Shown here: positions 27,571 to 59,134 of the stretch, piece by piece
How positions within the stretch are numbered: position 1 is the first letter of the stretch
Layout of the letters: each line of letters starts with the position of its first letter
NCBI GenBank assembly: GCA_009772895.1
Contig: WOUP01000006.1
Span: 124,001-188,000 of the forward strand
DNA: 64,000 bases
DNA from: Puniceicoccaceae bacterium 5H
GTDB taxonomy: Bacteria > Verrucomicrobiota > Verrucomicrobiia > Opitutales > Oceanipulchritudinaceae
Direction: 5' to 3'
The notes under the pieces: generated by a model
What the model saw: only the letters and a program-made list of their open reading frames with translations
The model's database searches: none
Told to the model about the DNA's origin: nothing
Position numbers and translations under genes: made by a program

Positions 27571-27993
27571 CTACAGCTGCTGGGCTACTACCGTCTCGCC
27601 GTGGGCGCAGCGGCGGAGGTCTTTGCCTACCTGCACGGGATCTCCCTTGATCAGGTAGCCGACGGCCCCGGCTTCGATCGCCTGACTGGCATAGCTGCGC
27701 TGATTGTGACCGGAGAGGATCACGCACTTGGTTTCGGGCAGCTCTGCACGCACCCGGCGCACGAGGTCGATCCCGTTCATGCCGGGCAGCGAGAGGTCCA
27801 CCATCAGTACATCGGGCTTCACTTCCGTCAGCTGAGGCAAGGCCTCTTCCGCCGAGCTGGCGCTGCCGCAAAAGTACATGTCGTCCTGCATGTCGAGAAA
27901 GACGCCGAGCACTTTGCGCAGGTTATCGTGATCCTCCACGATGAAAATGCTGAAGGATTCGGTATCGCTGGATTGGGTCGTTGTTTCGGCCAT
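27571..27993 (-). CDS. Stand-alone response-regulator receiver protein
   Basis: The 140-residue protein is a single REC domain: acidic pair Glu20/Asp21, phospho-acceptor Asp66 in LMVDLSLPGMNG, a Ser in LSGHNQ and Lys116 in YLIKGDP. The Val-Asp-x-x-Met-Pro-type loop and the YLIKG end resemble the receivers of NarL/FixJ regulators, but no DNA-binding domain follows; the protein stops after GETVVAQQL, which looks like the linker of a truncated NarL protein. It starts 21 bases after the hybrid kinase stop on the same strand, so it is the likely phosphorylation partner of that HisKA_3 kinase. The output is unknown and may be protein-protein. Confidence 0.88.
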   Translation of the reverse strand: MAETTTQSSDTESFSIFIVEDHDNLRKVLGVFLDMQDDMYFCGSASSAEEALPQLTEVKPDVLMVDLSLPGMNGIDLVRRVRAELPETKCVILSGHNQRSYASQAIEAGAVGYLIKGDPVQVGKDLRRCAHGETVVAQQL

Positions 27994-28014: not shown

Positions 28015-31000
28015 TTAGGTGGTGCTTTCGAGCGGCAAAATGATCGTGACGCGCGTGCCGTCGCCCGGGCGGCTGTAGACGGCAACTTCGCCGCCAAAGA
28101 GCTGGATGCGCTCGCGGACGGAGCCCAGGCCGAAGCCGGTGCCGTCTTCGACCGCCTCGTCTGCCTCGAAACCGTCACCTTCGTCGGCGACTTCGATGCG
28201 GAGCCAGCTATCTTCGGAGGAGAGCGCGACGCAAGCCTCGTCGGTATTGGCGTGCTTTACCACATTGAAGAGCAATTCTCGCACGACCTGAAAAAGCAGT
28301 ACCTGTGCCTCACGGCGCAGCGGAGAAAATCCCTCGGCGATTTCCAGCCTGACGCTCAGCCCGTGTTGCTCCTCAATCCGACTGCTCATCCAGCGCAGCA
28401 CTTCAGGAAAGCCCTCCTGATGGAGGATGGGCGGACTGAGGTCGACCGTCAGGCAGCGCGTCATGTCGATCGCCGTGCGCAACTCGTCGACGAGCTCGCG
28501 GGTATTTTCCTCTGGCAAGTTGTGGTGAGACTCGAGGATATGCAGGCGCATTTGCACACTCGCGAGCATTTGTTGCAAGTCATCGTGCAGGATCCGCGCG
28601 ATCCGGTCGCGCTCCTGCTGCTCCGCCAGAGCCAGATTGGAAGCGAGACGGCGGACAGTCGCCGTTGCCTCCTCCACCCGCTCCTCCAGCGTAGCGGTCA
28701 CCTGCTCCAGCTCCTGTTCGCGCTTGCGCAGGCGCAGCTCGGTCTCCTTGAGCAGCGAAATCTCCACCAGCGTGATCACAACTCCCTCCACGCGATCTTC
28801 CGCGGTGCGGTAGGGCAAGATGCGCAGCAGGTACCAGACACCGTCATCCGAGGCGACCTCTCTCTGGATTGGTTGCAGCGTCTCGAGCACTTTGGCGGCA
28901 TCCTGGTGCAGGCCGTCGTAGCCCAACCGGTGGGTAAAGTCGCGCAAGGGGCGTCCGCGATCGGAGGCACGCACGGAAAAGAGTTCGGAGACGCGCGGCG
29001 TGTAGCGCAGGATGCGCAGCTCGCGATCGAGGAAGAGCGTGGCAATGTCGGTCGAAGCCAGCAGGTTCTGCAAATCGCTGGTGAGCATCGACAGTTCATC
29101 GACCTTATGGCGGTTCTCCTGGTTGACGGTGATGAGCTCTTCGTTCATCGACTGCAGCTCTTCCTTGCTCGTCTCCAGCTCTTCCATCGTCGAGCGCAGC
29201 TCCTCATTGGCTGATTGCAGCTCTTCGTTGGAAGCGCGCATCTGATCCTGCGTCGATTCGTACTCCTGGATCACCATCTGCAGGCGCCGCTGGGTGAGGT
29301 CCAGCTCACCTTCGAGTTCCTGCACACTGGCGTTACGCCGGTCCAGCTGGGGCTTTTGGGGCGGAAGAGGCTGCAGGTGGCTCTCGTCAAACAAGATCAG
29401 GATATAGCCCTCCAGCTCCGCATCCTGGGGCGCCTGCACCCGCGCAACCACGCTCTTCCCGCCTTCCGGGGATTCGTTCTTGATCTGAATGGCACGCGTG
29501 CGCACCTCGTTCTCGCCCTGCTCCGCGGCATAGACCGCCGAGCGTAGCTCAACCCGAAGCTCCTCAACCACGCGCTTGAAAATGTTGTTGGTCGGATCGC
29601 CGCCCGGCTGCACCATATAACGACCGGCATTGGCCGAATAGTGCACAATATTGTGCTCGCGGTTGATCAATACGCTCGGGGGGCCATAGCGCTCGACCAT
29701 CTTCTGATGCAGCGTGCCGTAAGAGGTGCGACCGGCTTCCCGGTTGTTCTCCCTGCCCCGGCGCTGCACCAGTTGGCTGAAACTGGGCAGCGGCATGCGC
29801 GGCTCCGTCGCCCTGGAGTTACGGCGCGCGTAGACCTTGTGCTCTTTGTGCACGCAGTGGAACAGCTCCGCATCATCCACCGTCTCCGAAGAGCCGAGCA
29901 GCATCATGCCCTCCGCGCGCAAGGCATAGTGGAAGAGCTCGATAATGTCTTGCTGCACGTCGCGCTGCAGGTAGATCAGCAAATTACGGCAACAGACCAG
30001 ATCGATCCTGGAAAAGGGTGGATCCTTCAGCAGGTTGTGCGGCGCAAATACCACCAACTCGCGCACCTCGTTGCGGATGCGGTAGCCCCCGCTCTCCTGG
30101 CGGAAGAAGCGACGCAGGCGCTCGGGAGACACGTCCGATTCGATCGATTCGGGATAGAAACCATCTCGCCCCCGCGCGAGCGAAGCGTCGTGCAGGTCGC
30201 TGGCGAACACCTGGAACACAGGCGGATGATCCAGCTTGTCGCTCGCCTCCAGCAGCAGCATGGCCAGCGAATAGGCCTCCTCGCCACTGGCACAGCCGAC
30301 CGACCAGACGCGGATATTCTCTGCATTGCTCTTCTGGGCGAGGATCCCAGGCAACACCTCTTCTTCGAGGTAACGAAACACCGCCGCATCGCGGAAGAAA
30401 TTCGTGACCGTGATCAGCATGTCGTCCGCCAGCCGCGCGACTTCTTCCGGCTCCTCGCGCAGGTATTGCACATAGCCTTCCAGCGACGGCTGATTGCTTA
30501 GCTGCATCCGCCGGCGAATCCGCCGGATGATGGTCGAGCCCTTGTAGCGGGTGAAGTCACGGCTCGTGCGCACCCGGACCTGAGCATGGATCTTCTGCAG
30601 CAGGCGCTGTGCGTCGGCCGATAGCTCGTTTACATCCTCCGGCAGCTCGATTTGCGTGCGCGACTGGGCGATGCGCGCCAAGTGCTCGGCCATCTCGCCC
30701 ACCGGCAGCGCACGATCCGTCACGCCGTGGGCAATCGCACTCTGGGGCATGTCGCCATGCTCCGCATCCATCGGCTCCTGCACGAGGCAAATGCCGCCGC
30801 GCTCCCGGATGTAGCCCATCCCGACCGTGCCATCGGTCCCTGTGCCGGAAAGCAGCACCCCGACCGCCTTCTCCTGATGCGAGTCCGAAAGCGTGCGGAA
30901 AAAGAAGTCGATCTGGGCGCGATCGCGACGGCGCTCTTCCAACCCCTCCAGGTGCAGGTGTGAGTCGATGCTCTTCAGGTTACGGTTGGGCGGGATGACA

Positions 31001-31365
31001 TACACATTGTCTGGATCGACCTTGATGCCATCGGTCACTTGGTGGACCTGCATCGGCGTCTCGCGCTGCAGGATCTCCGGCAGCGCACTCGGGTAATCCG
31101 GCGAAAGGTGCATCACCACCACATAGGCCATACCCGTGTCGCCAGGCAGTTTCCTCAGCAGCTCGCTCAAGGCACGCAGGCCTCCAGCGGAGGCGCCGAT
31201 GCCCACGACCGTAAACGTAGGGGTCCAGTCGGGTCCGAAATCGGCTTGCGCGGGGGGTGGAGAGATGCAAGACACACCGGGACTATGGACCCGCTGTGCG
31301 GGCAAAGCAATGGATTTGCCCAATAAACCTGTTGCCCCCTCAGTGCGCCTCTTCAGCGTCTTCAT
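28015..31365 (-). CDS. CheB-CheR-PAS-histidine kinase fusion protein
   Basis: The 1116-residue cytoplasmic protein joins four modules. A CheB methylesterase domain (about 50-235) has catalytic Ser59 (GASAGG), His86 and Asp178 (GTGTDG). A CheR methyltransferase (about 250-520) has the SAM-binding GCASGEEAYS at 357-366. A PAS-like region is followed by a long coiled coil (about 690-790, repeated EEL-S-EEL pattern) and a PAS fold (about 800-900). A HisKA_3 kinase has phospho-His927 (ARILHDDLQQ), the N-box around Asn1034 (ELLFNVVKHA) and GTGFGLGSVRER. No CheA, CheW or chemoreceptor gene is near. The ATG start overlaps the 3' end of the phosphodiesterase gene by 26 bases, suggesting coupling. It probably senses a signal through PAS and phosphorylates the receiver encoded next. 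Confidence 0.92.
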   Translation of the reverse strand: MKTLKRRTEGATGLLGKSIALPAQRVHSPGVSCISPPPAQADFGPDWTPTFTVVGIGASAGGLRALSELLRKLPGDTGMAYVVVMHLSPDYPSALPEILQRETPMQVHQVTDGIKVDPDNVYVIPPNRNLKSIDSHLHLEGLEERRRDRAQIDFFFRTLSDSHQEKAVGVLLSGTGTDGTVGMGYIRERGGICLVQEPMDAEHGDMPQSAIAHGVTDRALPVGEMAEHLARIAQSRTQIELPEDVNELSADAQRLLQKIHAQVRVRTSRDFTRYKGSTIIRRIRRRMQLSNQPSLEGYVQYLREEPEEVARLADDMLITVTNFFRDAAVFRYLEEEVLPGILAQKSNAENIRVWSVGCASGEEAYSLAMLLLEASDKLDHPPVFQVFASDLHDASLARGRDGFYPESIESDVSPERLRRFFRQESGGYRIRNEVRELVVFAPHNLLKDPPFSRIDLVCCRNLLIYLQRDVQQDIIELFHYALRAEGMMLLGSSETVDDAELFHCVHKEHKVYARRNSRATEPRMPLPSFSQLVQRRGRENNREAGRTSYGTLHQKMVERYGPPSVLINREHNIVHYSANAGRYMVQPGGDPTNNIFKRVVEELRVELRSAVYAAEQGENEVRTRAIQIKNESPEGGKSVVARVQAPQDAELEGYILILFDESHLQPLPPQKPQLDRRNASVQELEGELDLTQRRLQMVIQEYESTQDQMRASNEELQSANEELRSTMEELETSKEELQSMNEELITVNQENRHKVDELSMLTSDLQNLLASTDIATLFLDRELRILRYTPRVSELFSVRASDRGRPLRDFTHRLGYDGLHQDAAKVLETLQPIQREVASDDGVWYLLRILPYRTAEDRVEGVVITLVEISLLKETELRLRKREQELEQVTATLEERVEEATATVRRLASNLALAEQQERDRIARILHDDLQQMLASVQMRLHILESHHNLPEENTRELVDELRTAIDMTRCLTVDLSPPILHQEGFPEVLRWMSSRIEEQHGLSVRLEIAEGFSPLRREAQVLLFQVVRELLFNVVKHANTDEACVALSSEDSWLRIEVADEGDGFEADEAVEDGTGFGLGSVRERIQLFGGEVAVYSRPGDGTRVTIILPLESTT

Positions 31366-32371
31366 GCGCCTTCACAAAGGCGACCGCGCTGTCTGGGAAG
31401 TCCGTAAAGAGCCCGTCGATGCCCACCTGCTCGAACAGCATCGAAAGCAGCATCTGCTCCGTCACACCGGCCGGCAAATACTCACGACGGAAGGTGTAGG
31501 GGTGCACCACCAGGCCCTGGCGGTGCGCGTCGGCCGTCAGCGGCAGCACTTTGGGCAAGCCGCGCGCGTCCCGGTTGATCACCTGCGCGAGCGAAGGCCC
31601 GATGCCGTCCGCGTAGCTCGCGATCTCCTTCAGCCCTTCGGGCGTCTGCATCGCCGCATAATCGTCCTCCGGATCGCCCTCGCTGCCCGGATTGCCAATC
31701 AGTTGCACCAGCTGCAGTTTGCAGCCCATCTCGTCCTGCAGCCGCTTGAGCGGGGCCGATTCGAAGCACTGGATGAAGCACAGGTCGTCCCGCTCGGTAT
31801 AGCCGTAGCGCGAGAGCAGATCGAACACGATGCGAGTGATGTCCTGCCCTTCCGCACGGTGGAAGTGCGGTTGCTTGAGCTCCACATAAAGGCCGGCGGT
31901 GCGCCCCGTCGAACGGTTCAGGCGCTGGATAAAGTCGATCTCCTCTTCCAGGGTCTGCACCGCCAGAGGCTGGCTGCTCAGGCCAAACCGGTCGGGAAAG
32001 ACCACCTCGCCCGTCTGTTCGCTCACCCGCTCGTGGGCGTGCAGCTGCCGAATCTCGTCCAGCGTAAAATCGATGGCGTAAAAATGGCCGTCTTCACGGG
32101 CACGATCCGGGAAACGCTCTTGCACGTCCGTGGTCCCGTCGAGGTGGATGTCGTGCAGGATGATCGGCACCCCGTCCTGGGTCAGGACGACGTCCTGCTC
32201 CAGGTAATCGGCCCCCACGGCATGGGCATAGGCCTTGGCCGCCAGCGTATGCTCCGGCAGGTAGCCGCTGGCGCCGCGGTGGGCGATGATGAGGGGCTTG
32301 GCCATGAGAGCGGCGGCACAGCCGAGTTGAAGGCAGGCAAGTGCCCAGCGAGAGACGATTTGAGAGATCAT
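31340..32371 (-). CDS. glpQ: Glycerophosphodiester phosphodiesterase, exported
   Basis: The ATG at 32371 gives 343 residues and places a signal peptide (MISQIVSRWALACLQLGCAAALMA) first; a longer in-frame start would mask it. The GDPD barrel signature is intact: AHRGASGYLPEHT with His31 and the Glu58/Asp60 pair in YLEQDVVLTQDG, and His73 in LHDIHLD. Later barrel strands include YVELKQP and GLFTDFPD. The enzyme splits glycerophosphodiesters into glycerol-3-phosphate and an alcohol in the periplasm, using calcium. It lies 50 bases downstream of a TBDR gene, and the hybrid kinase overlaps its 3' end, so all three may be one transcript. Confidence 0.93.
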   Translation of the reverse strand: MISQIVSRWALACLQLGCAAALMAKPLIIAHRGASGYLPEHTLAAKAYAHAVGADYLEQDVVLTQDGVPIILHDIHLDGTTDVQERFPDRAREDGHFYAIDFTLDEIRQLHAHERVSEQTGEVVFPDRFGLSSQPLAVQTLEEEIDFIQRLNRSTGRTAGLYVELKQPHFHRAEGQDITRIVFDLLSRYGYTERDDLCFIQCFESAPLKRLQDEMGCKLQLVQLIGNPGSEGDPEDDYAAMQTPEGLKEIASYADGIGPSLAQVINRDARGLPKVLPLTADAHRQGLVVHPYTFRREYLPAGVTEQMLLSMLFEQVGIDGLFTDFPDSAVAFVKAHEDAEEAH

Positions 32372-32420
32372 GATACAAAAAAGGCGGGAAGCCAATAAAC
32401 GACCCCCGCCAGTCAATGGT

Positions 32421-34892
32421 TTACAGGCGAATGGTCAACTCCAGCCCGTAGAGCCGCGGCGTTCCCGCGATATAAGTCGGCAGGCCAAGGCTGCGACCGG
32501 TATTGCCGGCGTCGATCAGATATGCCTCGTCGAGCGCGTTCTTCACGTAGAAGGCCAGCTGCCAGTTCGGGCGCGTCAGGCCGGCCCGCAGGTTGAGCAG
32601 CCCGTAGCTGTCTTGCGAAAGATCCTTCTCGTTGGGATCGTCGGTGAAGTAGATGCGGCTTTTCCAGGTGTAGGAGGGCGCGACGAAAACCGACCCATAC
32701 TCGGTGTTCACCTGGTAATGAAGGCCCAGGGCGAAAGAATTGCGCGGGGTCAGGCGGAAAGTGTTGCCCTCGTAGACAGTGTCCTCGCCGTTGAACTGCC
32801 CGTCGATCCAGCCGTAGTTGCCGAACAGAGTGCAGCCGGGCATCAACAGCGCGTTGAAGGACACTTCAGCCCCCAGCGCATCGGCATCACCCGCGCTCTC
32901 CGTCACCACCGCCCCATCGCGGATGACCGAGGTCGCGAAGTCGTTGTACTGGTAGTAAAACAGCGCTGATTCCAGCTGCACGCGGCGCTCCAGCAGGAAG
33001 CTCTTGAAGCCGATTTCGTAGCTGTTGAGCGTCTCGGCATCGAGTTCTTCGAAGTGGGGATCGCTGGCGGTATCGGTGATCGTGATCACGGCCGGGCGGC
33101 GCCCACGCGAGTAGCTGGCGTAGGTGTTGAAGTCGGGCGTCACCTGATAGGCCGCCACGAGGCGCCCCACGACCGAGGTATAGCTTTCGGACGCCGTCAT
33201 CTTGCCGTCGGTCGCCGCAAACTGCAGGTTGCCGGGCTCCGCCGCTTCGCGCAGGATCATCGCCATGTAGGTCGGGTCCGCCGGATCGACCCGATAGCCC
33301 GACTCGATGTCTTCGTAGGTGAAGCGCAGGCCGCCGGTCAGGCTGAACTGGTCGGTAATCTTCCAGGTCGTGTCGCCAAAGAGCTCGTAGGCGCTTTGCT
33401 CGCCGAAGTTTTCGTAGCTCTCCTCGTGGTAGGCGTCCAGAACCGGCACCTGATCCGGCGTCGGCAGCTGCAATGACGTCGGAGGCACACCTGCCGCCAG
33501 TTGTGCCTGGATGGAGAGCGCGGCCCACATGCCGTAGGGCAGCGTGGTGTTGCTGAGGTTGGGCTGACCGTCAATGATGGCGGGCTGCGCCTCGACCAGC
33601 GGCAGATTCACGCCCAGGGGCGCGAGCTGAGCGTTGAGCGCCTGGATCGAAGGGTTGACCGAAGCCGCGACCGAGGGGCTGACCTGCGCGAAGAGGATGC
33701 GCTCGTCCGTGCGTAGCGGCACGCGGGTCTCGGCGTCCTGATAGAAGAAGTTACCGCCAAAGAAGCCCTCCCATTGCGAGCCTGCTTCCCAGTTCACGCG
33801 CAGTTCCTGGCTCCACTGCTTTGAGCGGGCGTCCTCCGCAAATTCGAAGAGGTAGGCCTGGGTGCCGTCGGCGTCGAATTCCTCATAGGCATCGAACTCG
33901 CGATAGGCCGTGATGGACGTCAGCTCGAAGTTCGCGCCCAGCGGTTGCGTGAAGGTACCGGTGGCCCCCCAGACCGTGCGCTCGACGCCGAGGTCGTCGC
34001 CCCGGTTGAGCTGTCCGTATGCAAAGACATCCGGCTGGCTGCGGCCTTCCGGCGCATAGACTTTTTGCAGGAAGGAAGTGCCCGTATAGTCGTCGTACTG
34101 GTAGTTGACGGACAGGTCGAAAGTGCCGCCGCCGCCCAGCAGGTAACGCAGCGAAGGCCGGACCGCGATCGTCTCCACGCCGTTGAGGTCATCGTCCGCC
34201 CCGGGCTCGAGGTTATCGATAAAACCGTCGCGGTGGCGGTAGCTGGCGGCTACGCGCAGCAGCACCGTCTCCTCCACCAGGGGCGTATTGTAATAGCCGT
34301 CAGCGTGATACTGGGTCAGGTTGCCGCCGCCGATCGTGAGCTTCGCGCTGGTCTCATTTTGCGGCTTGTGGGTGATGAGGCTGAACGCGCCGCTGGAAGC
34401 CCCACGCCCGAACAGTGTGCTCTGCGGCCCCTTCAGCACTTCGATGCGCTCCATGTCGAACAGCTCCACCGCGGAACCCCGGCTCTTGGAGATCGAGACG
34501 CCGTCGAGGAAAACGGAGACGCGCGGCTCTTCGTAGGCATCCCCACTGTCGGTCGTAATGCCGCGGATGGCGAAGCCGGGGTTGTTGGGGCTCTGCAGTT
34601 GCGCCTCGAAGCCCGGGACATAGGCGGAGAGCTCCGCCATGTCCTGGATCTGCAACTGGTCCATCAGCGCGCCGTCATAGACGCTCATGGAGATCGGGAC
34701 TTCAATCGCTGCCTGTTCGCGCTTTTGCGCGGTGACCACGATTGGTTCGAGCGTGTAGACGGGTTCCTCGTCTGCCGCAGCCGTGTCTTGTGCGGCGATC
34801 CTGGCCCCACCCGCCGCGAGGGCAGTCAGCAGGGCGCAGGAGCGGATTTGGGCGGAGAAGCGATTCCGGCGAGCAAAGAAGCGTGCTTTCAT
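32421..34892 (-). CDS. TonB-dependent receptor (sphingomonad/Caulobacter type)
   Basis: The ATG at 34892 gives 823 residues with a signal peptide (MKARFFARRNRFSAQIRSCA, cleavage near IAAQ). The TonB-box region is TLEPIVVTAQKREQ. The plug (about 45-170) carries ELSAYVPGFEAQ and RIEVLKGPQSTLFGRGASSGAF, followed by a long barrel with GLELTIRL at the end. This PIVVTAQKR subgroup takes up many ligands, not only iron complexes. Its place between a membrane phosphohydrolase-like gene upstream and glpQ downstream suggests a phosphate-containing or lipid-derived ligand, which is inference. No Fur- or Pho-like box was seen before it. Confidence 0.9.
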   Translation of the reverse strand: MKARFFARRNRFSAQIRSCALLTALAAGGARIAAQDTAAADEEPVYTLEPIVVTAQKREQAAIEVPISMSVYDGALMDQLQIQDMAELSAYVPGFEAQLQSPNNPGFAIRGITTDSGDAYEEPRVSVFLDGVSISKSRGSAVELFDMERIEVLKGPQSTLFGRGASSGAFSLITHKPQNETSAKLTIGGGNLTQYHADGYYNTPLVEETVLLRVAASYRHRDGFIDNLEPGADDDLNGVETIAVRPSLRYLLGGGGTFDLSVNYQYDDYTGTSFLQKVYAPEGRSQPDVFAYGQLNRGDDLGVERTVWGATGTFTQPLGANFELTSITAYREFDAYEEFDADGTQAYLFEFAEDARSKQWSQELRVNWEAGSQWEGFFGGNFFYQDAETRVPLRTDERILFAQVSPSVAASVNPSIQALNAQLAPLGVNLPLVEAQPAIIDGQPNLSNTTLPYGMWAALSIQAQLAAGVPPTSLQLPTPDQVPVLDAYHEESYENFGEQSAYELFGDTTWKITDQFSLTGGLRFTYEDIESGYRVDPADPTYMAMILREAAEPGNLQFAATDGKMTASESYTSVVGRLVAAYQVTPDFNTYASYSRGRRPAVITITDTASDPHFEELDAETLNSYEIGFKSFLLERRVQLESALFYYQYNDFATSVIRDGAVVTESAGDADALGAEVSFNALLMPGCTLFGNYGWIDGQFNGEDTVYEGNTFRLTPRNSFALGLHYQVNTEYGSVFVAPSYTWKSRIYFTDDPNEKDLSQDSYGLLNLRAGLTRPNWQLAFYVKNALDEAYLIDAGNTGRSLGLPTYIAGTPRLYGLELTIRL

Positions 34893-35114
34893 GATGCCTT
34901 GGGATTGGGAAAAGCCACAGGCAGCAATTGAGAGAAACACCTGTGGATGAGCAGCCTTCTCCCTCCCCCCAGCGACTGCGTCAAGTTATCCTAGCTACTG
35001 GAAGCAAAGCATTTACAATCGGAACCAGACCGTCTGATTCCTCACCAATACGTAACAGTAGCACTCCTGCGAATCCCTATAAGCAGGAACTGCCCCGCCC
35101 CAGAAGAAACGCCT

Positions 35115-36203
35115 CTATCGTTGCGGCACTGGCTTGAACTCAAAGGTTGCGATCAACGGCAGGTGGTCGGAAATCGTCCACGTATCGCCCTGGCGCACGC
35201 GCGCCTCGGATGGATTGAGACGATCCGAATAGAAGAGGTAGTCGATCGTGCGGTCCGGCGCGTCGATCTCGGGATCATTAGGAAAGTGGGTCAGCCATCG
35301 CGCGCGGTCCGGACCCACCGCATCTTCCACCCGGGGGATGACCGACCACTCGCGCGTCAACGCCGCCAGCTCGCTCTGCTTCTGGTAGGAGACCTGGCGC
35401 GAAGGCGTGATCAGTTCGCGCTGGCCGGGCGGCAACAGATTGAAGTCGCCTCCGATGATCCAGGGCGTGCCCTCGGCATCCAGCTCCTCCAGGCGGGCGT
35501 GAATCAAGGCCACTTGCCGCTGCATGGTGTCGCTGCCCTGCGCAAAGGCGTCGAGGTGCGTATCCAGCACCGCCAGCGAACCGCCATCGGCCAGCGACAG
35601 CCGGCACTCCAGCACGCAGCGCTTGAAGTAAAACAGCGTCGTCAGCGGATCGTTGGGCTGCAGCGGCAACTGGTAACGGGTCGCCGACTCGATCGGATGC
35701 TTGGAAATTACCAGCAGGGCCATGCCCGCGCTGCCCATGATCTTCGGGTGCGGCACGTAGAGCGCACGGTGGTAATAGGTCCACGCGTGGTAGCGGTAGG
35801 CCTCCGGCAAGCGCTCGCGCAAGAGCGCCACCTGGTCTTCGTGATAGGTGTGCGCGCTGTCGACGTCCACCTCCTGCAGCAGCACCACGTCGGGGTCTTC
35901 TTCCCGGATCACGCGCGCCACCTCGTCGAGCGTCTTGAAGGTGTCCTCCTGCGAAGGCTTGGTGTCCGGGCCGGAGCTGTCGGGCAGGTCGTAATAAAAC
36001 ACGTAGTTCTTGCCAGCCATGTATTGCACATTCCAGCTCAGCACCTTCAGCGGTTGCCCCCGCTGCAGCGGCTCGCCGCCCGAGCCATGCACCTCCACCG
36101 TCTCGACCGCATCCGGGTGATAGGTGATGAGGTAGCACGTCGCCACAAAAACGACCACCAGCACCAGTAACGTAACGAAAAACCATTTCAGCGCGCGCAG
36201 CAT
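35115..36203 (-). CDS. Membrane-anchored endonuclease/exonuclease/phosphatase-family hydrolase
   Basis: The 362-residue protein has one N-terminal transmembrane helix (7-27) that anchors the catalytic domain on the outside of the inner membrane. The EEP metal-dependent fold is complete: LSWNVQY (Asn58), VLLQEVD (Glu111), the LDTHLDAFA strand with a catalytic His, GGDFNLLP (Asp/Asn), DRTIDYLFYS, and the C-terminal SDHLPLIA His. The family includes nucleases, sphingomyelinases and inositol-phosphate phosphatases, and the sequence does not settle which. The extracytoplasmic location and the neighbours (TBDR, GlpQ) favour a phosphodiesterase acting on lipids or phospho-compounds. Confidence 0.85.
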   Translation of the reverse strand: MLRALKWFFVTLLVLVVVFVATCYLITYHPDAVETVEVHGSGGEPLQRGQPLKVLSWNVQYMAGKNYVFYYDLPDSSGPDTKPSQEDTFKTLDEVARVIREEDPDVVLLQEVDVDSAHTYHEDQVALLRERLPEAYRYHAWTYYHRALYVPHPKIMGSAGMALLVISKHPIESATRYQLPLQPNDPLTTLFYFKRCVLECRLSLADGGSLAVLDTHLDAFAQGSDTMQRQVALIHARLEELDAEGTPWIIGGDFNLLPPGQRELITPSRQVSYQKQSELAALTREWSVIPRVEDAVGPDRARWLTHFPNDPEIDAPDRTIDYLFYSDRLNPSEARVRQGDTWTISDHLPLIATFEFKPVPQR

Positions 36204-36329
36204 GAGGCTCCCGTAAGCCGCTGCCGGCGACAGGGCAATCCCGCAGTGCTTTCGTCACCGGATTGTTGCCCGACTGCAAAAAGTGCCCTCCACGGTTGCG
36301 CGCAGGGGCACCTCCCCTACCGGTATAAC

Positions 36330-37322
36330 ATGCGCCGCACCCTGCTCAGCTTCGCCCTCGTGCTCCTCGTGCATGCCGCCACCTTCGCCGGCATCCGGCT
36401 GGAAGACGTCGACTACCCGTTTTCGGTCGAAACGTATGCCTTCGACAGCCAGCGACAATCGCTCGAGATGGCCTACATGGACGTCTCGCCCGACCGCTCG
36501 CCACGCGGCACCGTGGTGCTCCTCCACGGCAAGAACTTCTCCGGCTCCTATTTCGAGCAAACGGCCCAGGCGCTGGTGAAGGCCGGTTACCGCGTCATCA
36601 TGCCCGACCAGATCGGCTTCGGCAAATCGACCAAGCCCGAACACTACCACTACACCTTTCACCAGCTGGCGAAAAACACACACGACTTGCTGGAATCCCT
36701 TGGCGTGCAGCACGCCCATGTGCTCGGGCACTCCATGGGCGGCATGGTCGCCACGCGCTTTGCCCTGATGTATCCCGACATGACGGCGTCGCTGACCTTG
36801 CTCAACCCGATCGGCCTCGAGGACTGGAAGGCCAAGGGCGTGCCCTACCGCACCGTCGACGCCTGGTATCAGGGCGAGCTCGAGAAGACGCCGGAGAAGA
36901 TCAAGGCCTACATGCGGGCGTCCTACTACGACGGCGAGTGGAAGCCGCGCTACGATCCGTGGGTGGAGCAATTGGCCGCCTTTCTCGACAGCCCGGACTA
37001 CCCGCGCATGGCCTGGAACCAGGCGCTCGCCTACGACATGATCTATACCCAGCCGGTGGTCTACGAATTTTCTCAGCTCCAGGAGCCGACCCTGCTCATC
37101 ATCGGCCAACGCGACAAGACGGCGCTGGGCAAGGACCAGGTCTCGGAGGAAAAGCGGGCGAAACTGGGCAACTACCCCGCCCTCGGCCGCGCCGCGCACA
37201 ATGCCATCCCCGATTCCGAGCTGGTCGAACTGCAGGGCCTCGGGCACCTGCCCCACATCGAGGCCTTCGACCGCTTCTTCCCACCCTACCGCGCATTCCT
37301 CGACGAGCAGACGCAGGAGTAG
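36330..37322 (+). CDS. Exported alpha/beta-hydrolase
   Basis: From the ATG at 36330 the product has 330 residues with a signal peptide (MRRTLLSFALVLLVHAATFAG). The alpha/beta-hydrolase core has the oxyanion motif LLHGKNFSG, the nucleophile Ser135 in GHSMGGMVA, an acid in IIGQRDKTA and a His in GLGHLPHIE. A cap region lies about 170-235. Substrate is not clear: an ester, a haloalkane-like or a lipid substrate would all fit the fold. It diverges from the EEP gene, with 126 bases between the starts, so the two may be co-regulated. Confidence 0.88.
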   Translation: MRRTLLSFALVLLVHAATFAGIRLEDVDYPFSVETYAFDSQRQSLEMAYMDVSPDRSPRGTVVLLHGKNFSGSYFEQTAQALVKAGYRVIMPDQIGFGKSTKPEHYHYTFHQLAKNTHDLLESLGVQHAHVLGHSMGGMVATRFALMYPDMTASLTLLNPIGLEDWKAKGVPYRTVDAWYQGELEKTPEKIKAYMRASYYDGEWKPRYDPWVEQLAAFLDSPDYPRMAWNQALAYDMIYTQPVVYEFSQLQEPTLLIIGQRDKTALGKDQVSEEKRAKLGNYPALGRAAHNAIPDSELVELQGLGHLPHIEAFDRFFPPYRAFLDEQTQE

Positions 37323-37490: not shown

Positions 37491-37524
37491 CAAAAAACGC
37501 CAGCCTCTGGCAGGAGGCTGGCGT
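37491..37524 (-). terminator. Rho-independent terminator after the spondin-type gene
   Basis: An 11-bp perfect stem (plus-strand 37497-37507 with 37514-37524) closes a 6-base loop and is followed, on the minus strand, by TTTTTT. Confidence 0.95.
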
Positions 37525-37550: not shown

Positions 37551-38351
37551 CTATCGGCGGCGCCGCCAGCCGACCAGGCCCAGCGCGAGCAGCCCGGCGA
37601 GGGCGGCATAAGTCCGCGGCTCGGGCACGACCACGGCATTGAAGCGCACGAGTCCTTCGGAGCCGCTGGGCAGCACGGATACCGTATAGCCCGCCGGTGT
37701 ATCGGAGCCCAAATAGGCGTCGAGATTGGGATCGAGACTAATCATGCCGCCCTCCGGGTCACTATTGGTGGCGGTGTGCCCGTTGATGAAAGCCGCACCG
37801 TCGCCCATCGGCGCGTCGACTTCGGTGCCGGCGTCCCAGACCTGGCCGACGCTGACCGTGAGGCTGGTGAAACTGAAGTTGCCCATGCTGTCGAACAGCT
37901 CGATCGCCATCGGATCGTCATTGCCGATAAAGGCGTCGTTACTGGGCACAACCATCGCGCCGAACGACAGGTAGCGGTTCATCACCGGGTCGAGATCGAG
38001 CGTCACAGAGCCCATGGCCCCCGGCAGGTAAATACCGGGCCCGAAGCCGCCGCTGGAAGCCGCAACGGTGGTGGCGAGCCCGCCGTTCATCCCGGCAGAC
38101 GAGCCATTAAACAGCGTGGTCGCCGGCCCCGAGTCCCCCAACTCGGCGATGGCTTCGATTTCCGCCCCGGCCGTCGTGCCGGCGTCCCAGAGATCGAAGG
38201 TGCCATCGTGGGCGGCCAGGAAGACCGGCGAGTGCGCGTAGCTGTTGGCGGGCAAGAGATTTTCGATGTCGATGCGCACGAGCACGCCGTGCGCGACAGA
38301 GCAGACGCCGAGCGACGCCGCGAGCAGAGAGACTGTGAGTGGATGCTTCAT
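37551..38351 (-). CDS. Spondin-domain protein with PEP-CTERM sorting signal
   Basis: The ATG at 38351 gives 266 residues with a signal peptide (MKHPLTVSLLAASLGVCSVAHG). The body (about 23-230) resembles the spondin N-terminal domain: VRIDIENLLPANSYAHSPVFLAAHDG at the start and TVSVGQVWDAGTEVDAP late. The C-terminus VPEPRTYAALAGLLALGLVGWRRRR is a PEP-CTERM signal with Pro-Glu-Pro, a hydrophobic helix and a basic end. It should be processed by an exosortase and placed on the surface or in the extracellular matrix. No exosortase gene is in the window. A strong terminator follows. Confidence 0.92.
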   Translation of the reverse strand: MKHPLTVSLLAASLGVCSVAHGVLVRIDIENLLPANSYAHSPVFLAAHDGTFDLWDAGTTAGAEIEAIAELGDSGPATTLFNGSSAGMNGGLATTVAASSGGFGPGIYLPGAMGSVTLDLDPVMNRYLSFGAMVVPSNDAFIGNDDPMAIELFDSMGNFSFTSLTVSVGQVWDAGTEVDAPMGDGAAFINGHTATNSDPEGGMISLDPNLDAYLGSDTPAGYTVSVLPSGSEGLVRFNAVVVPEPRTYAALAGLLALGLVGWRRRR

Positions 38352-38588
38352 GGAGTAGATAGGTAGTTCAACATTGTGCGCTCCCGGGCAGTCGGGAACA
38401 CGCTGAGCAGGAGCAGCATCAGGAGGCCTTATTCCGAGAAAAAGCATTCCTAAGCCCAAATAGCCAACCTGCTTGAGCCCAAACCCTTACAGTAACCGTC
38501 CTAGAGCCGACTTGCCCGATCCGCTCAAGCTGTTGCGCAATTACCCGGGTTTCTTTCCTGCGGCGGCAGCCTGTGGAATAGTAGCGGC

Positions 38589-54121: not shown

Positions 54122-54820
54122 CTACTTTTGCCCGTAGTAGGCAGCGGGGCCGTGCTTGCGAGAGTAGTGCTTGTTGAGGATGTGGTCGGGCAGGATGGAG
54201 GCGGCGGCCTCGATCTGGAGGGCCTGCAGGGCCATCTGCGCCACGATCTCGAGCGCCTGAGCGTTCTCGACCGCCTTGGGACCGGAGGGACCCCACGCGA
54301 ACGGGCCGTGTTGGGCCACCAGCACGCCGGGCACCGCATCGGGATCGAGCTGGCGGAAGAGCTCGGCGATGACTACGCCGGTCTCCCACTCGTAGGCCGA
54401 TTCGACTTCCTCGGGCGTCAGCAGACGCGTGACCGGCACGGGACCGTAAAAGTGGTCGGCGTGCGTCGTGCCGAGGCAGGGAATGGGCTTTTGCGCCTGG
54501 GCAAACGACACCGCGTAGCGCGAGTGCGTGTGCACCACGGAGCGGATATTGCCGAAGGAGCGAAAGAGGCAGCGGTGGGTGGGCGTGTCCGACGAGGGGC
54601 GCAAGTCGCCTTCGACGACCTTGCCCTCGAGATCGACCAGCACCATGTGCTCGGGCCGCAGCTCGCCGTAGGGCACGCCGCTGGGCTTGATCGCAAACAC
54701 GCGCGCGTCGCGGTCGAGCACACTGACATTGCCGAAGGTCAGGTCCACCAGCCCCGTCTTGGGGAGCTGGCGGTTGGCCTCGCAGCACTCCTCGCGAATG
54801 GCTTGAAAACGCGGATCCAT
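54122..54820 (-). CDS. araD: L-ribulose-5-phosphate 4-epimerase
   Basis: The 232-residue protein has the normal AraD length and class II aldolase/epimerase marks: TFGNVSVLD, IKPSGVPYGEL, the DTPTHRCLFR region, zinc-binding VVHTHSRYA and LGTTHADHF, and VLVAQHGPFAWG. It converts L-ribulose-5-phosphate to D-xylulose-5-phosphate in the cytoplasm, feeding the pentose phosphate pathway. The start overlaps the araA stop by one base (TAATG), so the genes are translationally coupled in the order araB-araA-araD. Confidence 0.97.
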   Translation of the reverse strand: MDPRFQAIREECCEANRQLPKTGLVDLTFGNVSVLDRDARVFAIKPSGVPYGELRPEHMVLVDLEGKVVEGDLRPSSDTPTHRCLFRSFGNIRSVVHTHSRYAVSFAQAQKPIPCLGTTHADHFYGPVPVTRLLTPEEVESAYEWETGVVIAELFRQLDPDAVPGVLVAQHGPFAWGPSGPKAVENAQALEIVAQMALQALQIEAAASILPDHILNKHYSRKHGPAAYYGQK

Positions 54821-56331
54821 TAGTGGCCTCGGGAAGAGAGCGTGTAGTAGAGGTCGTTCCAGCGCGTCTTGTCGCGGAACTCGGCCAGCCTGGTGTCTTC
54901 GCCGATGAGCAGGTATTCGATCCCGGCCATTTCGGCGAAGTGCTCGAGCACGGTCGGATCGATCGCGCGGGTATAGCCCGTGTGGTGGGCGCCACCGGCG
55001 AGGATCCAGGCTTCGAGGCCGGTGCGGAAGTCGGGCAGCGGCTTCCAGACGGCACTGGCCACCGGCAGATTGGGCAGCGGGGCCGGCGTCTCGACCGCAT
55101 CGACGGCATTCACGAGCAGGCGGAAGCGGTTGCCCATGTCGACCAGCGAAGCGTTGAGGCCGCGGCCCGCCGGAGATTCGAAGACGAGGCGCACCGGGTC
55201 GCTCTTGCCGCCGATGCCCAGCGGATGGATTTCGAGGGAGGGCTTGCCCTTGGCGATGGAGGGGCAGATCTCCAACATGTGCGATCCCAGCACCATCTCG
55301 TTACCCGGCTCCATGTGGTAGGTGTAGTCCTCCATAAACGACACGCCTTCCGGCAGGCCGTGGGCCATCACCTTCATCGCGCGTAGCAGGGCGGCGGTCT
55401 TCCAATCGCCCTCGGCGGCAAAGCCGTAGCCTTCAGCCATCAGGCGCTGCGGCGCAAGGCCCGGCAGCTGATCGAGGCCGTGCAGGTCTTCGAAGGTGGT
55501 GGTGAAGCCGCTGTAGTTACCGGACTGGAGGAACTGGCGGATGCCGGCCTCGACGCGTGCTTCGGTGCGTAGCGAGGCGTGACGATCTCCTCCTTTGCGC
55601 AGGGCCGGCACCACGTTGTACAGTTCCTCGTATTCCGCGCAGATGCGATCCACCTCGGCGTCTGCCACCTGGTTGACCACCTCCACGAGGTCGCCGACGC
55701 CATAGCCGTCGACGGTAAAGCCAAAGCGCGCTTCGGCGGCAACTTTATCCCCCTCGGTTACGGCGACTTGCCGCATGTTGTCGCCAAAGCGCGCAAAGCG
55801 GGCGCCCTTCCATTCCTGCCAGGCGGTCGCGGCGCGCATCCAGCCCGCGAGCCGGGTCTGCGTCTCCGCGTTTTCCCAGTGGCCGGCCACCACCGCTTGA
55901 GGGCGGCGCAGGCGGGCGTTCATAAAACCGAACTCGCGGTCGCCGTGGGCGGCCTGGTTCAGGTTCATAAAGTCCATGTCGATCGTATCCCACGGCAGGT
56001 CGCGATTGAACTGCGTGTGCAGGTGCAGCATCGGCTTTTGCAGGTGCGTGAGCCCCCCGATCCACATCTTGGCGGGCGAGAAGGTGTGCATCCACGCCAC
56101 CAGACCCGCGCACTGCGGGTTGTTGTTGGCTTCGCGCACCAGCTCGCGAATGGCATCCGGCGTCGTCAGCAGGGCCTTGAAGACCAGGTTGACTGGCAGC
56201 CGCCCGCCGTTGTTGAGGCCCTCGATAATCTGCTGCGAATGGTGCGAGACCTGACGCAGCGTTTCGGGACCGTAGAGGTGCTGACTACCGGTGATGAACC
56301 AGAATTCCTGGGCTTTGGGAAGGAGTTTCAT
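54820..56331 (-). CDS. araA: L-arabinose isomerase
   Basis: The ATG at 56331 gives 503 residues, the usual AraA length; the frame is open further upstream but that part is in araB. Family marks: [14 protein letters not shown] at the N-terminus, [34 protein letters not shown], the metal-binding Glu region [13 protein letters not shown] and [13 protein letters not shown], and GGAHHTGYT near the end. It interconverts L-arabinose and L-ribulose, using a divalent metal, in the cytoplasm. Its start overlaps araB by ATGA and its stop overlaps araD. Confidence 0.98.
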
Positions 56332-58010
56332 GCCAAATTGCGTTGCTGTTCTTTCAGGGTAAGGAGCTCTTTCATGACGTGGCCGAGCGGGGGATTGCCC
56401 ACGTCGCCAAACTGGTCGTGCAACTGCCCGTAGAGCGTATAAAGCTGGTCGTAGACGCGCCCGGACTCCGGATTGCGCGTGTAGGAGACATCCTGGATGC
56501 CCGTCATGGCATCCTGCGCCGCCTTGAAGCTCGCATGGCCGCCCTTGTCCGGGCCGGCGAGCACGGAGGCCGCAACGGCGGCACCGAGGGCGCAAGCCTG
56601 GCTGGATTGGGCCACGAGCATTTCGCGACCGGTCACGTCGGCGTAGATCTGCATCAGCATCGGGTTCTTTTCCGCGATGCCGCCGGCGCAGACGATGCGC
56701 TCGATCTTGACGCCGTAGGACTCGATGCGCTCGAGGATGGCGCGGGCGCCGAAGGCCGTGGCCTCGATCAGCGCGCGGTAGATCTCCGCAGCAGTGGTGG
56801 AGAGCGTCTGGCCCAGCAAAAGCCCCGTCAAGCGCTGGTCCACCAGCACCGTCCGGTTGCCGTTGTTCCAGTCGAGGGCCAGCAGGCCACTCTCACCGGG
56901 ACGTAGCGCGGCGGCTTCCTGGGTGAGGCGGGCATGCGCCTCGGGGCTTTCGCTGCAAACGCCCTCCACCCACCACTTGAAGATGTCTCCGACGGCCGAT
57001 TGGCCGGCTTCGATCGCATCGTAACCGGGCAGAATGGAGCCCTTCACGATGCCGCAAATTCCTGGGATGTCGGCAGTTTCCTTATCGACGGGCACGACCA
57101 CGCAATCGCAGGTGGACGTGCCGATGACCTTGACCAGTGTGCCTTCATCGACCCCGCAACCGATCGCGCCGTAGTGCACGTCGAACTCGCCAATAGCGAT
57201 GGGGATGCCGACTGGCAGGCCCAACTGCCGGGCCCACGCTTCACAGAGGTTGCCCGCGGGCGTAGAGGCGTCGTAGGCCTGCGCATAGAGGCGGTCCCGC
57301 AAGTCCGCGAGGGCCGGGTCGAGCAGGGTCAAAAATTCCTTATCGGGCAGACCGCCCCAACTGTCGTGATAGAGCGCCTTGTGGCCGGCGGCGCAGACCC
57401 CGCGCACGATGTCTTCCGGGCGCTGGGCGCCAGCGAGCACGGAGGGGATCCAGTCGGCGATTTCCACCCACGAGTGGGCGGCGGCAAAGACCTTTGGGGC
57501 GACCTTCTGGCAGTGCCAGATCTTGCTCCAGAACCACTCCGAGGAGTAGGTATTGCCGCACTTGGCGACGAAATGCGGGCGGTGCTCGCGCGCCAGGGCC
57601 GTGATCTGGGCCGCTTCTTCGTGACTCGTGTGGTCCTTCCACAACCAGCACTGCGCGTCCAGGTCGTCCCGAAACTCCGGCAACATGCCCAGCGCTTCGT
57701 TCTGCGCATTGACGGGCATGGGGCTCGAACCGGTCGTATCGACGCCCATGCCGATGACCTGCGCGGCTTCAAACGAGGGGTCGCTCAGCTTTGCCTGACG
57801 CAAGGCTTCGGCCACCGCCTGCTTCATGGCTTCGAGGTAGTCACCCGGGTGCTGCCGCGCCAGGTGGCTCTGCCGTCGATCCAGTAATACGCCCGCTTCG
57901 CCTGAGGGGTAAGTCACAACGCCGGAACCGAGTTCTTTTCCATCCCGACAGCGGACAAGCAAAGCGCGCACGGAGTTAGTCCCGTAATCGAGACCTAGGG
58001 TAACGCTCAT
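56328..58010 (-). CDS. araB: L-ribulokinase
   Basis: The start [18 protein letters not shown] at 58010 gives 560 residues, matching FGGY-family ribulokinases; a longer frame extends into the promoter region. The kinase signatures are [13 protein letters not shown] (phosphate 1), the arabinose-type [32 protein letters not shown] and [15 protein letters not shown] (ATP-binding). It phosphorylates L-ribulose using ATP in the cytoplasm. It is the first gene of araBAD, divergent from a LacI-type regulator with a palindrome between them. Confidence 0.97.
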
Positions 58011-58057
58011 GTGATGGATACTGCCACGGCATTTTAAACTCGCCAAGGGGACCACCA

Positions 58058-58070
58058 CTTGACAGTCAAG
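58058..58070. promoter_or_regulatory. Perfect palindrome, likely operator of the LacI regulator
   Basis: CTTGACAGTCAAG is a perfect 13-base inverted repeat. It ends 5 bases before the regulator start codon and about 48 bases upstream of araB. A regulator bound here would block its own gene and could affect araBAD. The core TGACnGTCA recurs at 61959 in the GH95/GH43 intergenic region. Confidence 0.65.
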
Positions 58071-58075
58071 CCTGC

Positions 58076-59134
58076 ATGCCCCGCGTCACCATGCTCGACG
58101 TGGCCCGGAAGGCCGGCGTCTCCAAAAACGCCGTCTCTCTGGCGCTCAAGAGCGATCCTTCCATCCCCAAACAAACCCGTGAGCGCATCGTTGCCGTGGC
58201 CGAAGAAATGGGCTACGTGCGCAACGCCACGGTCAGCGAACTCATGTCGCGCCTGCGCCGCGAGCAGGAGCCGCGCTACCAGGCGACCCTCGGCCTGATC
58301 CACGCCAATCAGGACCGCGAGGCCCCGCACAAGCACCCGACCATCCCCGTCTACATCGAGGGCGTGCGGCGCCGGGCCCATGAGCACGGGTATCGCCTCG
58401 ACGGCTTCTGGTTGCACGATCCAGAGATCCGGGGGCAGACGCTACTGCGCATCCTGCGGCACCGCAACATCCGGGGTCTCGTCATCGTGGGGCTGATGAA
58501 GGAAAATCGCCTGCCCGACCACTTTTTGCCGGTAACCGAAGCGACCGCCTGCGTGGTCACGGGCGTGCGCACCCGCCAGCCCACCCTCTCTTTTGCGGCG
58601 GTGGACCACCATGCGCTGGGCCTGCGGGCGGTCGAAAAGGCCTTGGCGCTCGGCTATCGGCGCCCAGGGCTGGTGCTCGATGCGACCATCGACGGGCTGG
58701 TCGATCACCGGTTCTCGGGCGGCTACTTTGCGGGGCTACAGGATGTCGCGCCCTCTCACCGCATCCCGCCGTTTTTTGCGGTGGAAAACGCCAAGCACGA
58801 TCCGGCGCTCTTTTACGATTGGCTGCATCGTCACCAGCCGGACGTGCTCTTTACGCTCTACAACTCCGTGGCGCACTGGCTCGACGACGCCGGTTGGCGC
58901 GTGCCGGAAGAGATCGGCCTGATTCAGCTCGAATGGCGTGCCTCTCGTCCCCACTGGGCGGGCATGAACCAGCACAACGACATCGTAGGCGAGGTAGCGG
59001 TCGACATGGTCATCGGGATGCTGCACCGCGATCAGCTCGGCCTGCCCGACTTTCCCCGCTCCAGCCTGATCGACAGCTCCTGGATGGACGGCAAAACCGT
59101 CCGCGCCAAAGTCGGCGCGGCGACAGTGCGATAG
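58076..59134 (+). CDS. LacI-family transcriptional regulator of arabinose use
   Basis: The 352-residue protein has the LacI helix-turn-helix and hinge at its N-terminus (TMLDVARKAGVSKNAVSLAL, then MGYVRNATVSELM) and a periplasmic-binding-protein-like sensor domain (about 65-340) with GLIHANQDRE, FAAVDHHALGLRAVEKAL and LIQLEWRASRPHW. It diverges from araB, 65 bases apart, and has the palindrome just before its start. It most likely senses arabinose or a derived sugar and represses araBAD and itself. No ribosome site is visible. Confidence 0.93.
   Translation: MPRVTMLDVARKAGVSKNAVSLALKSDPSIPKQTRERIVAVAEEMGYVRNATVSELMSRLRREQEPRYQATLGLIHANQDREAPHKHPTIPVYIEGVRRRAHEHGYRLDGFWLHDPEIRGQTLLRILRHRNIRGLVIVGLMKENRLPDHFLPVTEATACVVTGVRTRQPTLSFAAVDHHALGLRAVEKALALGYRRPGLVLDATIDGLVDHRFSGGYFAGLQDVAPSHRIPPFFAVENAKHDPALFYDWLHRHQPDVLFTLYNSVAHWLDDAGWRVPEEIGLIQLEWRASRPHWAGMNQHNDIVGEVAVDMVIGMLHRDQLGLPDFPRSSLIDSSWMDGKTVRAKVGAATVR

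Follow-up and report, generated by a model that had tools for sequence, protein, structure and literature searches.

Five genes lie one behind the other on the minus strand of the window, by which we mean the whole 64-kb stretch of DNA that was analysed. They are transcribed in the order EEP, TBDR, glpQ, kinase and receiver, and an alpha/beta hydrolase gene diverges from them on the plus strand (Table 1). All six genes named by the first-pass annotation were recovered near the positions it had assigned to them, using open reading frames and Pfam and profile searches. The conserved core is formed by the EEP, the TBDR and GlpQ, a smaller unit than that annotation had proposed. ATG 34892 is the most likely start of the TBDR, which leaves a gap of 222 nt to the EEP gene and allows a separate TBDR promoter. 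Beyond the hydrolase, a minus-strand gene (37551-38459) encodes a Spondin-domain protein (NF038123) with a PEP-CTERM-like C-terminus (VPEPRTYAALAGLLALGLVGWRRRR), and a strong terminator (37497-37524) lies 3' of it.

Table 1. Genes and sequence features of the locus (positions in the window)
Feature	Positions	Strand	Remarks
Receiver, single-domain	27571-27993	minus	PF00072; kinase partner; judged outside the module
CheB-CheR-PAS-HisKA_3-HATPase kinase	28015-31365	minus	Adjacent gene; judged outside the module
glpQ, exported glycerophosphodiester phosphodiesterase	31340-32371	minus	Core gene 3; NF008354, 1ydy, signal-like N-terminus
Terminator-like hairpin with T6, TBDR/glpQ junction	32376-32412	minus	Folding energy and shuffles
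TonB-dependent receptor (TBDR)	32421-34892	minus	Core gene 2; Plug and beta-barrel Pfam domains
Candidate Pho-box-like direct repeat, 5' of the TBDR	35041-35057	plus	Shuffle p 0.017; suggestive only
EEP, N-terminal membrane helix and endonuclease/exonuclease/phosphatase domain	35115-36203	minus	Core gene 1; PF03372
Candidate Pho-box-like direct repeat (11-bp period), EEP/hydrolase divergent region	36254-36270	plus	Shuffle p 0.010; suggestive only
Alpha/beta hydrolase, exported, divergent	36330-37322	plus	Signal-peptide start at ATG 36330; PF00561; best PDB relative 4f0j; judged outside the module

Identity of the three core proteins

Judged from its sequence, GlpQ is clearly an E. coli-type enzyme with a predicted export signal. 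It matched NF008354 over residues 23-351 with 383.3 bits, exceeding the curated cut-off of 254, and the structure of E. coli GlpQ (1ydy) with 302 bits. The catalytic HR, ExD, HD and E-K motifs are present in the alignment with 1ydy, the invariant columns of the GlpQ alignment being H31, R32, E58, D60, H73, E164 and K166. The N-terminus is hydrophobic and signal-like, as judged by eye.

The TBDR contains a Plug domain (PF07715) and a TonB-dependent beta-barrel (PF00593), both above cut-off. Against the siderophore-receptor model TIGR01783 it scored 157.7 bits, below the curated cut-off of 223.5, and its nearest PDB chains are the receptors for pesticin/yersiniabactin, pyochelin and pseudopaline. 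Its structure model was too poor for use (pLDDT 57).

The EEP protein matched PF03372 with 72.5 bits (5e-20). A sequence search of the PDB gave 4ruw as its sole relative, which was also matched by fold, and Foldseek with a model of medium quality (65.8) ranked EEP folds at the top. The active-site-type residues SWN, LQE, GGDFN and SDH are kept in the orthologues where these are covered. Domain, motifs and fold search agree that the protein belongs to the EEP superfamily; at this model quality the fold search did not separate nuclease-like from sphingomyelinase-like members.

Conservation of the trio within the family

The order EEP-TBDR-GlpQ is conserved in three genera of one family, represented by the window's genome (G000), G008 and G012. 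In G008 the trio occupies positions 147559-152277 of contig C2 (EEP 147559-148629, TBDR 148851-151211, GlpQ 151330-152277), with order and strand as in the window. In G012 it lies on contig C80 (20370-24473), the EEP gene being split by the contig end with its remainder at the end of contig C11. The trio proteins share 46-66% identity across the three genera, the TBDR orthologues of G008 and G012 being 63-66% identical within the same gene order, and the genes flanking the trio differ among the three genomes. The first-pass annotation had suggested a linkage of TBDR, GlpQ and EEP and had named conservation of this set in other genomes as a check; the linkage was borne out in two further genera, although the surrounding genes are unrelated.

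Counted at strong thresholds (E<=1e-30 for the EEP) in 72 relatives, EEP orthologues and TBDR orthologues were each present in three, and these were the same three genomes; full-length GlpQ is more widely distributed. The window's genome has a single GlpQ and tens of TBDR candidates, and because of the latter an adjacency in one genome is cheap: we estimate the probability that a TBDR stands beside the sole GlpQ by accident at a few percent. The case for linkage therefore rests on conservation and not on adjacency in a single genome.

A phylum-wide search for the EEP in 387 drawn genomes matched the window's genome alone; the EEP is thus rare and may have been acquired horizontally. A relative (46%) is plasmid-borne in P. 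aeruginosa, and the annotation shows neither a TBDR nor a GlpQ within 8 kb of it. A GlpQ scan of named genomes gave three loci, and the two examined (L002 and L003, the latter ending at a contig end) were without the trio. At G012 locus L079 (8870-14271), the EEP adjoins homologues of the window genes at 54820-56595 and 58076-59134, the latter LacI-like, hinting at an older, longer-range synteny between these neighbours and positions 54820-59134 of the window. A second TBDR-GlpQ association within the same family is found in G007 (L073, 8073-18586) and G003 (L076, 1-10670), where the neighbours of GlpQ are a phosphonate-type ABC transporter, a calcineurin-like phosphoesterase and a TBDR of another kind (CarboxypepD_reg type).

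The kinase/receiver pair and the hydrolase

The module had also been credited with its own sensor. In a genome of the same genus (G001), the kinase and the receiver are found together on contig C13 and glpQ on contig C5, and in G008 and G012 the kinase has no close homologue reaching 1e-80. The G001 locus (L080, 8822-12531) keeps the CheB-CheR-PAS-kinase and the single-domain receiver, which is without an output domain, as a stand-alone pair away from any GlpQ or TBDR. The coupling read from the overlap of glpQ and the kinase gene is doubtful as well. The first 30 residues of the called open reading frame show no similarity to the G001 kinase, which sets in at residue 31, and translation beginning near GTG 31275, past the end of glpQ, is at least as likely as from the called start. 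Since the called start is doubtful, the overlap is poor evidence of coupling. The sensor was rejected as a part of the module on account of this doubtful overlap, of its separation from glpQ in G001 and of the missing close kinase homologues in G008 and G012.

The alpha/beta hydrolase has no counterpart at the trio loci of G008 and G012. Its best solved relative, 4f0j, is described as a 'probable hydrolytic enzyme' and gives no hint of phospholipase function. Although it shares with the EEP gene a divergent region of 126 bp containing a Pho-box-like site, it was rejected as a part of the module on conservation. The scheme of deacylation, import and splitting put forward in the first-pass annotation thereby loses its first step, and phospholipid head groups are kept as one possible substrate among several, without being singled out. 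We judge the kinase/receiver pair and the hydrolase to be neighbours of the module and not parts of it.

The TBDR family and phosphodiesterases in other lineages

Among 372 genomes of the order that were searched, eight belonging to a second family, f14, contain TBDR homologues. Three of these eight, from two genera (G134, G223 and G330), have tightly packed TBDR, PhoD and GlpQ genes with the TBDR first, almost no gap between TBDR and PhoD, and an ATGA overlap, or nearly so, between PhoD and GlpQ. PhoD lies directly 3' of the TBDR homologue in Indioceanicola, Qipengyuania and Sphingobium RAC03 (plasmid records); it is divergent from it in S. parapaucimobilis (Sphingomonas) and about 2.4 kb away in Pseudoalteromonas. 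No GlpQ or PhoD was found near the TBDR in G354, G189, G318, G196, G064 and several Sphingobium copies. The phosphodiesterase linkage is scattered over the tree of 23 members of the TBDR family, and these gene arrangements indicate that the association is real and recurrent, not universal.

A search for the TBDR at 1e-130 in 369 gammaproteobacterial genomes gave none, a result of little weight because scoring was limited to the two best candidates of each genome. In G342 (L098, 2267-3670), an exported lipase (PF18067, PF00561) lies directly 5' of a TBDR of the same family, in the place of PhoD/GlpQ. No paper on TBDR-GlpQ-EEP or TBDR-PhoD-GlpQ was found in the partial library that was searched.

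Transcription and phosphate regulation

The junction between the TBDR and glpQ (32372-32420) contains a hairpin of -17.4 kcal/mol (z -4.83; 0 of 200 shuffles as strong) followed by T6. Both strands of the window contain only five T6 sites, three of which, including this one, are preceded by a strong hairpin. The corresponding junction carries a hairpin of -24.0 with a U-rich tail in G008, and a strong stem with a weak U tract in G012; the three hairpins are unrelated in sequence and occupy the same position. The terminator-like hairpin speaks against a simple operon, and the coupling of GlpQ to the TBDR is probably partial or regulated. As the hairpin leaves no space for a promoter before ATG 32371, transcription of glpQ probably depends on read-through or begins inside the TBDR gene.

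A scan with the E. coli Pho box was uninformative, the box being absent even at pst promoters here. A GTNAC repeat stood out at pstS in both G223 and G012 and at the phosphonate-type transporter of G007, and these three pst/phn sites were used as a model. Three-fold GTNAC repeats with a period of 11 bp were seen 5' of pstS (L123, L125), phnD (L073) and f14 TBDRs (L090, L091). In the window the model scored upstream of the EEP (p 0.010) and of the TBDR (p 0.017), values to be read with the facts that three sites make a tiny training set, that several regions were scored and that the motif was first spotted partly in G134 itself. It also scored at the G008 EEP and the f14 TBDRs, with no match at the kinase gene or at the control genes (trkH, SDR). 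The repeat is possibly a clade-specific Pho box; for Pho control of the trio it is suggestive only.

Proposed function and alternative explanations

We propose, with a probability of roughly 0.6, that EEP, TBDR and GlpQ form a conserved phosphodiester-scavenging module combining import through the TBDR with periplasmic cleavage. The TonB-energised receptor would carry into the periplasm a phosphodiester that porins cannot supply because of its size or scarcity, and the membrane-anchored EEP and the soluble GlpQ would cut it there. GlpQ would yield glycerol-3-phosphate and an alcohol, and the EEP would cut linkages that GlpQ does not or prepare the substrate, a role which PhoD would fill in the sister architecture TBDR-PhoD-GlpQ. 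The released phosphorus, and perhaps the carbon too, would then be taken up. Since GlpT was not detected in the window's genome, the phosphate may be removed from glycerol-3-phosphate outside the cytoplasm, or another carrier may be used. The hairpin ahead of glpQ probably makes GlpQ scarcer than the receptor or places it under separate control. The gene families, their conserved order, the linkage of the TBDR with phosphodiesterases and the hairpin are seen in the sequence itself; phosphodiester transport, the order of the enzymes, partial read-through and phosphate control are inferred.

The main rival is a metallophore or siderophore receptor, since the nearest solved TBDRs bind siderophores; the linkage to GlpQ, EEP and PhoD would then reflect the provision of metals to phosphatases that depend on them, or shared induction in general starvation. 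PhoD-type enzymes require metals, and a weak similarity to TIGR01783 (158 bits) points the same way. That score is nevertheless far under 223.5, the linked genes found are all phosphoesterases, and annotation, BLAST and a limited, not exhaustive, Pfam scan revealed no gene for siderophore biosynthesis, a ferric reductase or iron ABC transport in the loci; we regard this explanation as unlikely. The trio could alternatively be specific for glycerol-phosphate polymers such as teichoic acid fragments of Gram-positive bacteria, with PhoD or EEP acting as endo- and GlpQ as exo-enzyme on oligomers delivered by the TBDR. The B. subtilis enzymes are exolytic (GlpQ) and endolytic (PhoD) teichoicases (PMC7086022), f14 packs PhoD-GlpQ with the TBDR, and the size of an oligomer would justify a TBDR over a porin. 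Small glycerophosphodiesters are, however, the substrates of E. coli-type GlpQ, and the EEP has no known teichoic acid cleavage; glycerol-phosphate oligomers would be an attractive but unproven ligand, and a trio restricted to them seems to us quite unlikely.

Coincidental neighbours held together by slow rearrangement would be in keeping with the tens of TBDR candidates per genome, which make a single adjacency cheap. Such an origin is improbable given a trio that persists in three genera although the flanking genes are unrelated and the proteins share 46-66% identity, and given the independent TBDR-PhoD and TBDR-PhoD-GlpQ linkages in other lineages. Scarcely credible, finally, is the larger system first proposed, in which hydrolase, EEP, TBDR, GlpQ and kinase/receiver would make up one phospholipid-scavenging and sensing unit. 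The five same-strand genes with short gaps and the 126-bp divergent region with its Pho-box-like site speak for it; against it stand the location of the kinase/receiver pair in G001 and its want of close homologues in G008 and G012, the missing hydrolase at the other trio loci, the doubtful kinase overlap and the terminator-like hairpin within the run.

Comparison with known systems

The proposed phosphodiester-scavenging module resembles the Pus loci of Flavobacterium, where Pi-repressed TBDT/SusCD and PDE genes are induced by Pi depletion (PMC8115612), in having a TonB-dependent transporter gene beside periplasmic phosphodiesterases or phosphatases for organic phosphorus. Pus has SusC and a SusD lipoprotein, whereas the trio has a different TBDR type and EEP and GlpQ as enzymes; no SusD match was obtained among the locus proteins scanned against Pfam, and the locus has no other gene-sized gap. 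With GlpQ/PhoD of Bacillus subtilis it shares the GlpQ family, and the f14 operon of PhoD and GlpQ matches the endo/exo pair, but the trio locus is Gram-negative and includes a TBDR, and in the window the EEP replaces PhoD. E. coli glpTQ likewise has a periplasmic GlpQ, to which the 302-bit match with 1ydy refers; here the partners are the TBDR and the EEP, in a genome without a detected GlpT. In a sphingomonad, co-purification and mutant growth connect phosphate acquisition with the TonB system and with a membrane-associated phosphoester hydrolase; this hydrolase is a phosphotriesterase, and neither GlpQ nor EEP takes part (PMC7142613).

The trio is made of ordinary families in a little-described combination, with a core that is real and conserved. 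We consider it possible, if doubtful, that the TBDRs form a distinct, undescribed phosphodiester-import family present in at least two phyla, with exchangeable PhoD, GlpQ and EEP partners and an oligomeric glycerol-phosphate ligand, for example teichoic acid fragments released by Gram-positive neighbours. Many TBDRs are without a known ligand and are annotated as siderophore receptors by default; a TBDR family accompanied by PhoD, GlpQ or EEP in distant bacteria points to a class of ligands that is concrete and can be tested, and with it organic phosphorus would gain an uptake route without SusD outside the Bacteroidetes.
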